Shown piece after piece: positions 19,611 through 58,364 of a stretch of 64,000 nt of DNA (positions are counted from its first letter, which is position 1; every line of letters starts with the position of its first letter). Made by a program: the position numbers and the translations under genes. This DNA is from Candidatus Latescibacterota bacterium. GTDB taxonomy: Bacteria; Latescibacterota; UBA2968. Where the stretch lies: the NCBI GenBank assembly GCA_022824945.1, contig JAJDYX010000008.1, positions 62,001 through 126,000 of the forward strand, in the 5' to 3' direction. The notes under the pieces are model-generated. The model saw nothing but the letters and a program-made list of their open reading frames with translations, did not search any database and had not been told where the DNA came from.

Positions 19611-19686
19611 CGGCATCTCCCACATTGTCCATTTACTGTGTTACGCAGTTTATCTACAACAGGTCGTCATTAGAGAGAGGATGAAA

Positions 19687-21009
19687 ATGGATGCAAAAAC
19701 CAAAAAGTTGCAGGTGGATCAGGCTGTGAAATCGCAGTCGCGGTGGGCGTTTAAGCTGTCGCGGAGTATTCACGGCTGGGCAGAGCGGCCGTTTCAGGAA
19801 TACGAGTCGTCAAAGGCTTTGGCGGCGTATTTGGAGGAGAACGGATTTCAAATTGAATTTCCGTTTAAAAAGATTCCAACGGCTTTTCGCGCCATCTGGG
19901 GCACGGGCAAACCCACTATTGGCATGTTGGGGGAGTACGACGCATTGCCCAATTGCGGTGCCGAGGAGGGCACCTGGGGCCACGGCTGAGGTCATAATCT
20001 TTTGGGCGTTGCCCCGGCCGCAGGTGCGGTTGCTGCAAAGACAGTATTGGAAAATTTGAAATCATCTGGTCAGATTATTTATTACGGCTGTCCGGCTGAA
20101 GAGACGCTGGCTGGCAAAGTGTATATGGCTCGCGATGGCGCGTTTAGAGATCTGGATGCGGTGCTGGCATGGCATCCGGGATCGGGTACGGGTGTCAGCA
20201 ATTATGGCGGTTCGTCGCTGGATTCGCTGGTATATGAGTTTTTTGGCAAGACGTCTCACGGCGCGAGTGCTCACAATGGGCGCAGTGCATTGGACGGGGT
20301 GATGTTGATGGATGTTGCGGCGAATTATTTGCGCGAGCACGTTCCCGAAAATGTGCGTATCCACTGTGTAATTCGGGACGGTGGAGACGCGCCCAATGTG
20401 GTTCCAGCTTATGCGAAGGTGTGGTACTATGTGCGGGGGAAGGATCGTGAACAGGTGAATAAAGTACGCAAGCGATTGACCAAATGCGCCAAGGGTGCGG
20501 CGATGGCTACGGAAACGACTATGAAATGGCATCGTATCACGGCTGTGTACCCGCGCTTGCCAAATGATGTGATGTGCGAAACTGTGCGTCAAAATCTCGA
20601 GTTATTCGGTCCGCCGCGTGCTTCTAAAAAGGATAAGGAACGCGTAGTGGAATTGGGATACAAAGGTGAATTTGACGGAAAGGTCAAAAAGGGGAAGGGG
20701 TCACAGGGGCGCGGGTCTTCGGATGAAGACAATGTGTCGTGGCTGGCACCTATGGGTCGGTTTCAGATGGTGTGTTATACAAAGGGCACGCCGGGCCATC
20801 ACCGCGATATGACCGCGCAGGCGATAATGCCTTATGCCGAGCGCGCAGTTCTGCAAACGGCAAAGGTGTTTGCAGGATCGGCTATTGATCTGATTTTGGA
20901 CAAAAAGCTGTTACAAGCAGCGCGTGCGGAATTTAAAAAGGGAACGAAGGGGTTTAAGTACGATCCGCTGATTAAAAAAAAGCAAAAGGTCCCTGTGGAT
21001 CCTCCGTAA
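19687..21009 (+). CDS. M20 family amidohydrolase (AbgB-like), probable selenoprotein with in-frame TGA
   Basis: 440 residues if TGA at 19987-19989 is read through. Both halves are in the same frame and together make a normal-length M20D/AbgB-type metal hydrolase (cleaves N-acyl amino acids or aminobenzoyl-glutamate-like amides). The TGA is codon 101 and falls exactly where the family has the metal-ligand Cys: His-Gly-[TGA]-Gly-His-Asn-Leu-Leu-Gly, against the family's HGCGHNLLG. The other expected ligands are intact: His103, Glu138/139 (CPAEET), His163 (WHPG) and His371/372 (TPGHHRD). No other stop or frameshift occurs in the following 340 codons. A SECIS-like hairpin follows the TGA. The start at 19687 is chosen over 19681 because GAGAGG is 6 nt upstream. 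The alternative is a recent nonsense mutation or a base-call error. A dehydrogenase gene follows 97 nt later. Confidence 0.8.
19987..20038 (+). promoter_or_regulatory. UGA codon and candidate bacterial SECIS hairpin
   Basis: The UGA is at 19987-19989. Downstream, CGGCCGC (20015-20021) pairs with GCGGUUG (20026-20032) around the tetraloop AGGU; beneath a 2x2 internal loop, UUGC (20009-20012) pairs with GCAA (20035-20038). The apical loop begins 32 nt after the UGA, within the range accepted for bacterial SECIS elements (roughly 16-37 nt as I recall), and has G in its first two positions, resembling the AGGU of the E. coli fdhF element. Confidence 0.7.
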
Positions 21010-54800: not shown

Positions 54801-54850
54801 CTGCATGACCAAAACTGTCAAGAGGTACGCCCATTATGTGGCACTTTGCA

Positions 54851-56596
54851 TTATTTTTTTGCCACTGGACCCTTTGGCGCCTCCTTGCTGTACAATGTAC
54901 TGCCTCGCTCGTAAGACGAGACGACTGAACCGTCGGCAATTTCTAACCTGGGCACGTTCTTGTCGAACACATCGCGGTCGGGACCGCGCATGACTGCCAT
55001 CTGTTCATCGGTCATGCCCGAGACGAGGTCGCCCCACCGTTTTTCTGGATGGGTCAATTCTCCGCCACTGCGATTGAAGTTGCGCGATGAGTATTTGTGC
55101 AAAATCCCCCGTCGCGAGATGTCGCTTTTCCACGCCAATGTGCCATGTGTGGTGCCGCCGTCCATGAAGAAGAGCACGTCGCCTGCTTTCATCTCTACGT
55201 GTTTTACCAATCCCATGTGATCATCGCAGGTGCGCACGCCCGGGGGGAGTGAATAATACGCTTTGTGCGATCCCGGCACGCACGCAAATCCCCCGTCGGC
55301 TTCGGTCACATCGCGCAATTGCCAGGTTACGGTTACGGCTTCGCAATAGCTTCGGCCATTTTGATAGATATATCCTCGCCCTGGATTGAGCGGCTCATTG
55401 GAGTCGTGTAGAGAATGGCCCGATGTGCCTTTGACCGCGCAAAATGCCGTTCCTCCGCCCGTGCGACCACCACTGGCACCCATCCAGTTCAGCCGATGTT
55501 CAACTGCCGGATGGGCGAGCATTCGTCGGAATGGGTCGCAATAGGGACTGGGCAATTGAGTCAGCCCATTCAACAGGGGTCTGCCCGTGCCTGCGAGGCT
55601 TTTTGACCCGCGTGCGAGTTCTTCGCCAACGACGATTCGGTCCTCAAATTTGTCAATGGCGGCGTTGGCCTGTGCCAGCCATTCTTCATCCATGACCCCA
55701 CGTAGCACCAGGTACCCGTTCAAGTCCCAAAAGTAAAACTCTTTTTCGTCAATGCCCGAATTTGGATTTTTCATCAGGAAAGATGGGTGAAAAATCTCGC
55801 GAGATTCGTCCAATGCAATTGTCTCGCCATCTGTTTTTAATGTGGGTGGCGGCGTTGTATCCCAATACCCTGGGCGATACAGCGATGCGCTCTGTTCAGG
55901 AGTCATTCCCGTCATCGAGTCGGATACTGGCATTTTTTTCGATTCAGGTGCAGGTCCCGCAGAACGTATCACACCGCGTCCTACGTATTCGTAGGACAAT
56001 AAGCGCTGAAGTCCCTCGCCATGCCAGGGGCGCATGCCCTGTACGACGCTCAAGCCGACGATGAGCAGATCGCCCGCTTTTAGTTCGGGTTGAAAAAGAT
56101 AATCCGAGTCATCCTCGCCGGTTAATATATCTTCTGGCGTTTCTACATTTGACTTGTGGGTACACTGTACAAATGCAAACCCGCCATCGCCAGCTTTTAC
56201 GTCCGAGAGTGCCCAGATTACGCGCACGCCTTCGCAAAATCTTCGACCGTTCTGATAATAATATGCCAGGGCGGGATCTCTCGGCTCATTGCCTCCTGCC
56301 AGTGGGGCAGAGGTGTCACAGGTTTCGTCGCACAGTATTTCAGGTGCGCGGTCGAGTCTGAAACCGTGTCCGACAATTTGGTTCAGATACCACACGAGTT
56401 GGGGATGGATCAATAAATCGCGGAATGGCTCGCGCAAATCGCCTTCCCAGCCGAGCATGCCCTCAAGCGATCCAGCCCGATCAATCGCATCGTTCAACCG
56501 CGCGATTTCGGGACGGGTCAGGACCCCCGGTATATGCAAATAGCCCGTTAAATCAAAGGCGTAATTCTCTTCGTTTGTCATTGTTTCCCGGTCCAT
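54851..56596 (-). CDS. Double-domain PhyH-like protein, copy A
   Basis: 581 residues, two PhyH-type halves. Half 1 begins NYAFDLTGYLHIPGVLTRPEI (about residue 10), half 2 EFYFWDLNGYLVLRGVMDEEW (about 288). Each half has the core region with YYYQNGRRFCEGVRVIWAL or YIYQNGRSYCEAVTVTWQL and a GGFA-type motif. The typical His-x-Asp iron pair of PhyH was not found in either half, though distal His in DGGTTHGTLAWK remains, so it may be inactive or use different ligands. Tandem with copy B (nearly identical at nucleotide level). Confidence 0.85.
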   Translation of the reverse strand: MDRETMTNEENYAFDLTGYLHIPGVLTRPEIARLNDAIDRAGSLEGMLGWEGDLREPFRDLLIHPQLVWYLNQIVGHGFRLDRAPEILCDETCDTSAPLAGGNEPRDPALAYYYQNGRRFCEGVRVIWALSDVKAGDGGFAFVQCTHKSNVETPEDILTGEDDSDYLFQPELKAGDLLIVGLSVVQGMRPWHGEGLQRLLSYEYVGRGVIRSAGPAPESKKMPVSDSMTGMTPEQSASLYRPGYWDTTPPPTLKTDGETIALDESREIFHPSFLMKNPNSGIDEKEFYFWDLNGYLVLRGVMDEEWLAQANAAIDKFEDRIVVGEELARGSKSLAGTGRPLLNGLTQLPSPYCDPFRRMLAHPAVEHRLNWMGASGGRTGGGTAFCAVKGTSGHSLHDSNEPLNPGRGYIYQNGRSYCEAVTVTWQLRDVTEADGGFACVPGSHKAYYSLPPGVRTCDDHMGLVKHVEMKAGDVLFFMDGGTTHGTLAWKSDISRRGILHKYSSRNFNRSGGELTHPEKRWGDLVSGMTDEQMAVMRGPDRDVFDKNVPRLEIADGSVVSSYERGSTLYSKEAPKGPVAKK

Positions 56597-56618
56597 GTCA
56601 GTCTCCTTTTAGTTTGTA

Positions 56619-58364
56619 TTATTTTTTTGCCACTGGACCCTTTGGCGCGTCCTTGCTGTACAATGCACCGCCTCGTTCATAAGACGCGACGACTGAACCG
56701 TCGGCAATTTCCAATCTGGGCACGTTCTTTGTGAACACATCGCGGTCGGGACCGCGCATGACTGCCATCTGTTCATCGGTCATGCCCGAGACGAGATCGC
56801 CCCACCGTTTTTCTGGATGGGACAATTCTCCTCCGCTGCGATTGAAATTGCGCGATGAGTATTTGTGCAAAATCCCTCGCCGCGAGATGTCGCTTTTCCA
56901 CGCGAATGTGCCATGTGAGGTGCTGCCATCCATGAAGAAGAGCACATCGCCCGCTTTCACCCCTATGTGTTTTACCAATCCCATGTGGTCATCGCAGGAG
57001 CGCACACCCGGGGGGGTAGGATAATACGCTTTGTGCGATCCCGGCACGCATGCAAACCCACCATCGGCTTCGGTTACATCGCGCAACTGCCAGGTTACGG
57101 TTACGGCTTCGCAATAACTGCGTCCATTTTGATAAATATATCCCCGGGTTGGATTGAGCGGCTCATTGGAGCCATGCTGGGAATGGCCCGATGTGCCTTT
57201 GACCGAGCAAAATGCCGTTCCTCCACCCGTGCGACCACCACTGGCTCCCATCCAGTTTAGCCGATGTTCAACGACCGGGTGGGCGAGCATTCGCCGGAAT
57301 GGGTCGCAATAGGGGCTGGGCAACTGGGTCAATCCACCCAACAGGGGTCTGCCAGTGCCCGCAAGGGTTTTTGATCCTTGTGCGAGTTCTTCACCAACGA
57401 CGATTTGATCCTCAAACTTGTCAATGGTGGCATTGGCTTGTGCCAGCCATTCTTCGTCCATGACCCCGCGCAGCACCAGGTACCCGTTCAAGTCCCAAAA
57501 GTAAAATTCTTTTTCGTCAATGCCCGAGTTTGGATTTTTCATCAGGAAAGATGGGTGAAAAATCTCGCGAGATTCGTCCAATGTGATTGTCTCGCCATCT
57601 GTTTTCAAAGTCGGTGGTGGCGTGGTATTGCGATATCCGGGGCGATAGAGCGATGCACCCTGTTCAGGTGTTAGTTCCTCAATCAAGTCGGATACTGGCA
57701 TCTTTTCCGATTCAGGTGCAGGTCCCGCAGAACGGATCACACCGCGGCCTACATATTCGTAGGATAGCAAGCGTTGCGGTCCCTCGCCTTGCCACGGACG
57801 CATGCCCTGTACGACGCTCAGACCGACGATGAGCAAATCGCCCGCTTTTAGTGCGGGTTGAAAAAGATAATCCGAGTCATCTACACCGGTCAATATATCT
57901 TCTGGCGTTTCTACATTTGATTTGTGGGTACACGGTACAAATACAAATCCGCCGTCGCTGGCTTTGGCATCAGAGAGTGCCCAGATTACGCGCACACCTT
58001 CACAAAATCTTCGATCGTTCTGGTGATAATATGACAGCGCGGGATCTCGTGGCTCATTGCCGCCCTCCAGCGGCGCAGAGGTGTCACAGGTTTCGTCGCA
58101 CAGTATTTCAGGTGTGCGGTCGAGCCTGAAACCGTGTCCCACAATTTGATTCAGATACCACACGAGTTGGGGATGGATCAGCAAATCGCGGAATGGCTCG
58201 CGCAAATCGCCTTCCCAGCCGAGCATGCCCTCGAGCGATCCGGCCCGATCAATCGCATCGTTTAACCGCGCGATTTCGGGACGGGTTAGAACCCCCGGCA
58301 CATGCAAATAACCCGTTAAATCAAAGGCGTAATTCTCTTCATTCGTCATCGTTTCCCGGTCCAT
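56619..58364 (-). CDS. Double-domain PhyH-like protein, copy B
   Basis: 581 residues from the ATG at 58364 (AGGAGG 5-6 nt before); the frame opens to 58415 but upstream codons lack support. Identical length and architecture to copy A, about 90% identical by eye, with small differences (for example DGSTSHGTF for DGGTTHGTL, and GHSQHGSNEP for GHSLHDSNEP). Lies 22 nt ahead of copy A, so they are one operon produced by a recent tandem duplication of about 1770 bp. Confidence 0.85.
   Translation of the reverse strand: MDRETMTNEENYAFDLTGYLHVPGVLTRPEIARLNDAIDRAGSLEGMLGWEGDLREPFRDLLIHPQLVWYLNQIVGHGFRLDRTPEILCDETCDTSAPLEGGNEPRDPALSYYHQNDRRFCEGVRVIWALSDAKASDGGFVFVPCTHKSNVETPEDILTGVDDSDYLFQPALKAGDLLIVGLSVVQGMRPWQGEGPQRLLSYEYVGRGVIRSAGPAPESEKMPVSDLIEELTPEQGASLYRPGYRNTTPPPTLKTDGETITLDESREIFHPSFLMKNPNSGIDEKEFYFWDLNGYLVLRGVMDEEWLAQANATIDKFEDQIVVGEELAQGSKTLAGTGRPLLGGLTQLPSPYCDPFRRMLAHPVVEHRLNWMGASGGRTGGGTAFCSVKGTSGHSQHGSNEPLNPTRGYIYQNGRSYCEAVTVTWQLRDVTEADGGFACVPGSHKAYYPTPPGVRSCDDHMGLVKHIGVKAGDVLFFMDGSTSHGTFAWKSDISRRGILHKYSSRNFNRSGGELSHPEKRWGDLVSGMTDEQMAVMRGPDRDVFTKNVPRLEIADGSVVASYERGGALYSKDAPKGPVAKK

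Follow-up and report, generated by a model that had tools for sequence, protein, structure and literature searches.

A probable selenoprotein among the M20D-type amidohydrolases of Latescibacterota, with selenocysteine predicted at the metal-bridging cysteine position

Does an in-frame TGA at the position of a metal-binding cysteine encode selenocysteine (Sec), and what might selenium do in a hydrolase? The question is raised by an M20D-type amidohydrolase gene in a 64,000-nucleotide stretch of a Latescibacterota genome (hereafter the window). We consider it likely, with a probability of about 0.85, that this gene encodes a selenoprotein in which Sec stands in place of the metal-bridging Cys of an M20D-type hydrolase. 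Behind this reading are results that were computed directly, namely a conserved TGA, the Sec machinery, a constrained SECIS-like hairpin, a single branch in the protein tree, and an intact fold and ligand set.

The source genome (G000, with the window on contig G000:C41) comprises 5.49 Mb in 57 contigs, with a completeness of 98.01 and a contamination of 5.98. The frame opens with ATG at 19687 and runs through 100 codons before the TGA and 339 sense codons after it, with no second internal stop before the TAA at 21007-21009 (Table 1). Purine-rich stretches lie upstream of most orthologous starts. An earlier, sequence-only reading had placed a single in-frame TGA at codon 101, at the Cys of an HGCGHNLLG motif and with both halves in one frame, and the frame and alignments agree with it (peptide context EEGTWGHG-U-GHNLLG). 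It had also counted 340 further clean codons; they are indeed clean, although that figure includes the terminator.

The predicted protein matches the NCBIfam profile TIGR01891 at 197.7 bits (cut-off 153.75), and the sole Pfam domain recognised in it is the M20 dimerisation domain (PF07687, 31.4 versus 21 bits). A profile built from 33 relatives matches HmrA (3RAM, 1.7e-80) and PM20D2 (7YH4, 1.6e-69). The AlphaFold2 model has a pLDDT of 91.5 and a pTM of 0.90, and its best structural matches are PM20D2, HmrA and the Corynebacterium aminoacylase 6SLF. Both halves of the frame form one protein, because alignments to Cys-bearing PDB chains run across the TGA column, in which residue 101 lies opposite the H-x-CGH cysteine of 3RAM, 7YH4/8XZC and 1XMB.

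In all 33 sequences of alignment A2 (20 Cys proteins and 13 TGA proteins, the latter out of 22 full-length ones; one relative, L111, excluded), residue 101, His103, Glu138, Glu139, His163 and His371 are invariant. The rest of the M20D ligand set (His103, Glu139, His163, His371) is retained, as the first reading had said, with the Cys of the bridging position replaced by TGA (predicted Sec). Its statement that this family Cys bridges or binds the metals holds for CsAga, an M20D enzyme in which a cysteine bridges two zincs (PMC11511702).

Table 1. Features of the amidohydrolase locus, in window positions.
Feature	Position	Strand	Basis
AGGA, probable ribosome-binding site, 5 nt 5' of ATG	19678..19681	+	inference from sequence
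CDS of the predicted M20D-type amidohydrolase selenoprotein	19687..21009	+	frame, homology, fold model; 440 residues, TAA terminator
TGA, predicted Sec codon 101 at the metal-ligand Cys column	19987..19989	+	TGA in 23/24 class orthologues
His103, predicted metal ligand	19993..19995	+	invariant 33/33
Codons +6 to +14 after TGA, least synonymous variation in the gene	20005..20031	+	lowest of 411 nine-codon windows
Bacterial SECIS-like hairpin, 7-bp stem, loop AGGU at 20022-20025, 32 nt 3' of TGA	20015..20032	+	bSECIS model, codon constraint
Glu138 (predicted general base) and Glu139 (predicted metal ligand), PAEE motif	20098..20103	+	invariant 33/33
His163 (WHPG), predicted metal ligand	20173..20175	+	invariant 33/33
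His371, predicted metal ligand of the C-terminal part	20797..20799	+	invariant 33/33

All 15 available genomes of the GTDB family possess the orthologue with one TGA. Among the 47 genomes searched in the class, 24 have an orthologue (at least 67% identity), with TGA in 23 (72-100% identity) and TGC in the remaining one, G040. The orthologue of G012, one of the 23, lies in two pieces on separate contigs (L038, L039); it is included in this count and in the 23-sequence hairpin alignment and excluded from the tests on 22 genes (terminators, selection, tree, fourfold codons, SECIS model). The TGA-bearing orthologues span several genera and families, and two lie in single-contig chromosomes (L072, L073). 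A comparison of homologues at this column, which the sequence-only reading had proposed, finds Cys in the relatives alongside the TGA of the class, and the sequencing error that it had allowed for, a true TGC or TGT, does not appear in the independent assemblies, L072 and L073 included, which show TGA. A published criterion for selenoproteins asks that the TGA be kept in at least two different sequences (PMC1088965); here it is kept in 23 genomes.

Across 64 genomes of the phylum we found no additional TGA copy of the amidohydrolase, and some M20 relative was present in 57 of them; a wider scan of genome contigs found 48 relatives, using peptide patterns that favour close relatives and, over the motif, Cys codons, so that distant TGA copies could be missed. 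Loci that cover the column without a TGA carry TGC or TGT there, with the exception of L111, a sequence of 32% identity with Glu (GAG). In a protein tree of 43 rows (L111 left out), a branch with support 94/95 separates the TGA genes from the rest, and a single change between Cys and TGA suffices in 92% of 200 bootstrap trees. The G040 gene is sister to the TGA genes, and the Cys genes of Kiritimatiellota and Planctomycetota fall outside.

Purifying selection acts on both sides of the TGA: among 12 pairs with the window gene, omega is 0.05-0.21 for the 5' part and 0.05-0.13 for the 3' part, in six pairs each, the remainder being saturated. The final terminator is TAA or TAG in all 22 full-length TGA genes and TGA in three of ten Cys genes; the weight of the count for the TGA genes is lowered by their shared descent.

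The candidate SECIS element is the hairpin CGGCCGC-AGGU-GCGGUUG (7 bp, 32 nt from the TGA, -9.4 kcal/mol). It was evaluated against the published bSECIS model, which specifies a 3-9-nt loop with G within its first two positions, a 4-16-bp stem, a distance of 16-37 nt from the UGA and an energy of at most -7.5 kcal/mol (PMC13188914); our scan is our own literal version of the printed model, with unbroken stems only and the energy of the hairpin alone. A fitting hairpin follows the TGA in 22 of 22 full-length TGA genes, compared with two of ten Cys genes (L082, L088) and 26 of the 1992 TGAs on both strands of the window, nine TGAs having a hairpin at least as stable. The selD gene of the same genome, used as a positive control, also passes the model (GGU loop, 20 nt, -8.5).

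The strongest sign for a SECIS is the constraint on codons. Synonymous difference over codons +6 to +14 is 0.091, against a gene mean of 0.47. Fourfold codons whose residue is unchanged in the 22 genes are invariant in 6 of 7 cases over the hairpin versus 0 of 79 elsewhere (Fisher 1.5e-8), and ten chosen representatives give 6 of 7 versus 1 of 84 (Fisher 7.3e-8); these values are optimistic owing to kinship, although hairpin and non-hairpin codons share one tree. Each of the 19 distinct sequences forms all seven pairs. Two of the pairs vary on one side (C-G/U-G and G-C/G-U) and two-sided compensatory changes are absent among these 19, while column shuffles of the pairing are uninformative because the columns hardly vary. 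Folding energies of the hairpins were not below those of shuffles, and Rfam reported no SECIS family in the 251 bases surrounding the TGA.

The source genome encodes the complete machinery that the sequence-only reading had asked for. The selB (391 bits) and selA (493 bits) genes are adjacent, and selD (371 bits) adjoins a tRNA-Sec gene (selC; 73 bits) that ARAGORN calls as tRNA-SeC; the window itself contains no tRNA according to ARAGORN. Within the class, selA exceeds 165 bits in 45 of 47 genomes, the exceptions being G008 and G040. The genes selB, tRNA-Sec and selD were searched in eight of the 47, and ARAGORN confirms tRNA-SeC in seven of these eight. G008 has the TGA gene and lacks selA in its assembly; given that tRNA-Sec, selD and a selB fragment cut at a contig start are present, an assembly gap is likely. 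On all the evidence, a selenoprotein gene is very probable, with Sec predicted from sequence at codon 101.

The selD of the source genome (at G000:C29:6424-7344, minus strand, within locus L125, G000:C29:4000-9000) is a selenoprotein gene itself, with a TGA in VSCGG-U-ASKL and a GGU-loop hairpin 20 nt 3' of it. This TGA was seen in six of the eight genomes searched; G027 has only the C-terminal part of the gene and G040 has no selD.

The sole class orthologue with Cys (TGC) resides in G040, a genome without recognised selA, selB, selD or tRNA-Sec. Searches there returned no selA-sized match, neither selB nor selD over the cut-offs, and no tRNA-Sec over the gathering score (the best match is a tRNA-Leu); G040 is 86% complete, and each single absence is therefore weak. 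This lineage may have kept the ancestral Cys or may have reverted to Cys upon loss of the machinery. Outside the class, Cys is not tied to missing machinery, as selB is over the cut-off in three of the ten Cys-carrying genomes tested (G040 included); a further one of the ten, G072, has two selB-like fragments. The G040 Cys gene (L061/L080) retains GTG GGT GCG GTC, like the TGA relatives of family f2, with a broken 5' arm of the hairpin, and might represent a decayed SECIS. In a Kiritimatiellae Cys gene (L082, TGC), a model hairpin lies 34 nt after codon 1198-1200 (-10.3 kcal/mol) in a genome with selB not over the cut-off; it is either a remnant of a lost Sec state or due to chance.

Two long open frames split by a TGA are not rare by themselves. 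The window holds 47 TGAs flanked by long open frames (at least 80/60 open codons), and that of codon 101 alone has a hairpin fitting the bacterial SECIS model. A Pfam scan of eight of the other 46 frames found no best-scoring domain that stretched across the TGA. Accidental adjacency of open frames was rejected on these grounds and on the retention of the TGA in 23 genomes.

Under the proposed mechanism, SelB bound to the hairpin would direct the ribosome to read the UGA as Sec, and the product would be an M20D-type amidohydrolase of 440 residues carrying Sec101. Judging from homology, the selenium would replace the cysteine sulfur that bridges two catalytic divalent metals, and given a selenoprotein this bridging role is quite probable. 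We take His103, Glu139, His163 and His371 to be the further ligands, and Glu138 to be the general base, from what is known of the M20 family. The predicted enzyme would hydrolyse an amide, such as that of an N-acyl-amino acid or a dipeptide-like substrate. Most likely, Sec would benefit the enzyme through a metal-selenolate centre with better recovery from oxidation than a thiolate offers, or through an altered metal preference.

Several other accounts of the TGA were weighed. A Cys codon becomes TGA in one step from TGC or TGT, and a paralogue in G038 resembles such a case, so a pseudogene, nonsense mutation or assembly error has to be considered; yet the TGA recurs in 23 independent assemblies, down to 72% identity and in two single-contig chromosomes, and, with dN/dS downstream as low as 0.05-0.13 in the six of twelve pairs that gave a usable dS and with frozen hairpin codons, we hold such damage to be extremely improbable. 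The frame is open whatever the TGA encodes, as would also be expected if a variant code or near-cognate readthrough gave an ordinary residue (Trp, Cys or Arg). Against this, a Cys codon occupies the column in the paralogue L002, and the full Sec machinery and the hairpin are present. Among the window's 39 stop-to-stop frames of 300 codons or more, moreover, TGA is the commonest end (19 frames), and therefore is not reassigned; decoding as an ordinary residue is very unlikely. An in-frame TTG at 20002 could serve as the restart of a C-terminal protein behind a 100-residue N-terminal fragment, but neither of these two products would have the whole invariant ligand set, the spacing and the frozen codons suit a SECIS rather than a restart, and the Cys orthologues are continuous, which leaves this arrangement with hardly any probability.

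A different role for the same residue deserves more weight. The protein could be a selenoprotein in which Sec101 acts mainly as a redox switch or as protection against oxidation, where oxidation of the selenolate frees a metal and turns the hydrolase off and reduction turns it on again. Most known selenoproteins are redox proteins or redox-like (PMC13188914), and the sequence evidence for such a switch is identical to that for a bridging ligand. Residue 101, however, lies within an invariant metal-ligand motif, a UxxC/CxxU partner is absent (the motif reads UGHN), and the nearly invariant Cys135 is distant in sequence. We consider a mainly redox role unlikely and prefer Sec as a ligand bridging the metals.

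The closest known systems include Cys-bearing aminoacylases and dipeptidases of the M20D group. HmrA (3RAM), PM20D2/Xaa-Arg dipeptidase (7YH4), CsAga (6SLF) and ILL2 (1XMB) likewise have the GHxCGHN, PAEE and WHP motifs and the C-terminal His, and HmrA and PM20D2 fold alike (TM-score by query length 0.77-0.80); all four differ in having Cys where our gene has TGA, and the nearest solved structures share 26-27% identity. Cys orthologues of the subfamily in Latescibacterota (G040/L080, 67%), Kiritimatiellota (55-57%) and Planctomycetota (45-54%) are collinear and have the same invariant residues, but carry TGC at the column, and eight of ten are without a model hairpin. Sec on a catalytic metal is found in formate dehydrogenase (Mo/W) and [NiFeSe] hydrogenase (Ni) (PMC13188914); these are redox enzymes with one metal at the selenium, whereas ours is a predicted dinuclear hydrolase. 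Sec has also been predicted in proteins named as hydrolases, including a trypsin-like serine protease and MucD in the GOS survey (PMC2398784) and UshA-like proteins (PMC13188914). The authors of the survey propose thiol redox chemistry for its proteases (PMC2398784), and neither the proteases nor the UshA-like proteins are M20 enzymes.

The best reading of the sequence is that the amidohydrolase represents a new selenoprotein family with Sec replacing a metal-bridging Cys. The 119 prokaryotic selenoprotein families compiled in 2026 in Table 1 of PMC13188914 include neither an M20 enzyme nor an amidohydrolase, and the terms hydrolase, peptidase, protease, acylase, PF01546 and M20 are never mentioned in the main text of that paper. 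Among the matches listed for the open literature (PMC2398784, PMC12013277 and PMC9312934 included), no M20-type selenoprotein is named. PMC13081902 treats a different amidohydrolase superfamily, PMC2276186 places ygeY, an ordinary M20 gene, in a cluster related to selenium and does not list it as a selenoprotein, and the passages on Latescibacteria in PMC8318568 do not have selenoproteins as their subject. NCBIfam (June 2026) has no dedicated model, and 33 of 33 members of A2 match the general TIGR01891.

Selenium occurs chiefly in redox proteins, and holding metals is an uncommon role for it; the advantage of Sec over Cys outside redox chemistry is an open question. It is reasonably probable that this would be the first dinuclear metallohydrolase with Sec bridging its catalytic metals, a tuned ligand in a non-redox hydrolase that has been selected across several families of the class, with the SECIS inside the coding sequence. 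The natural TGA and TGC (G040) orthologues, at 67% identity and with fold and other ligands equal, make sulfur versus selenium at a metal bridge directly testable in a simple hydrolase. The gene is also of a type that ordinary annotation splits in two.

The amidohydrolase gene is flanked by an AAA/nuclease-like gene and a zinc-type dehydrogenase, and the gene run also includes a mandelate-racemase-type enzyme, a beta-lactamase-fold protein, an alpha/beta hydrolase, an RraA-like protein, a sulfatase and an aldo-keto reductase, which points to a possible catabolic island. At 13 of 18 TGA loci (L068-L079, L081, L056-L060; some from duplicate genomes), at least one of two neighbours, the dehydrogenase or the racemase-type gene, lies nearby, and neither is found within the available stretch at L075-L078 and L081.

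Another M20 gene, the G038 paralogue (L123, G038:C97:1-3500, around 1190), keeps its Cys and has a single in-frame TGA elsewhere. It was rejected as a second Sec case, as the TGA is off the Cys column and occurs in G038 only; it is probably a nonsense change or a read error. Elsewhere in the window, positions 54845-58059 contain a direct duplication with a spacing of 1768 bases (300 nt at 93%) and four related 79-base copies, all within a region of protein repeats.
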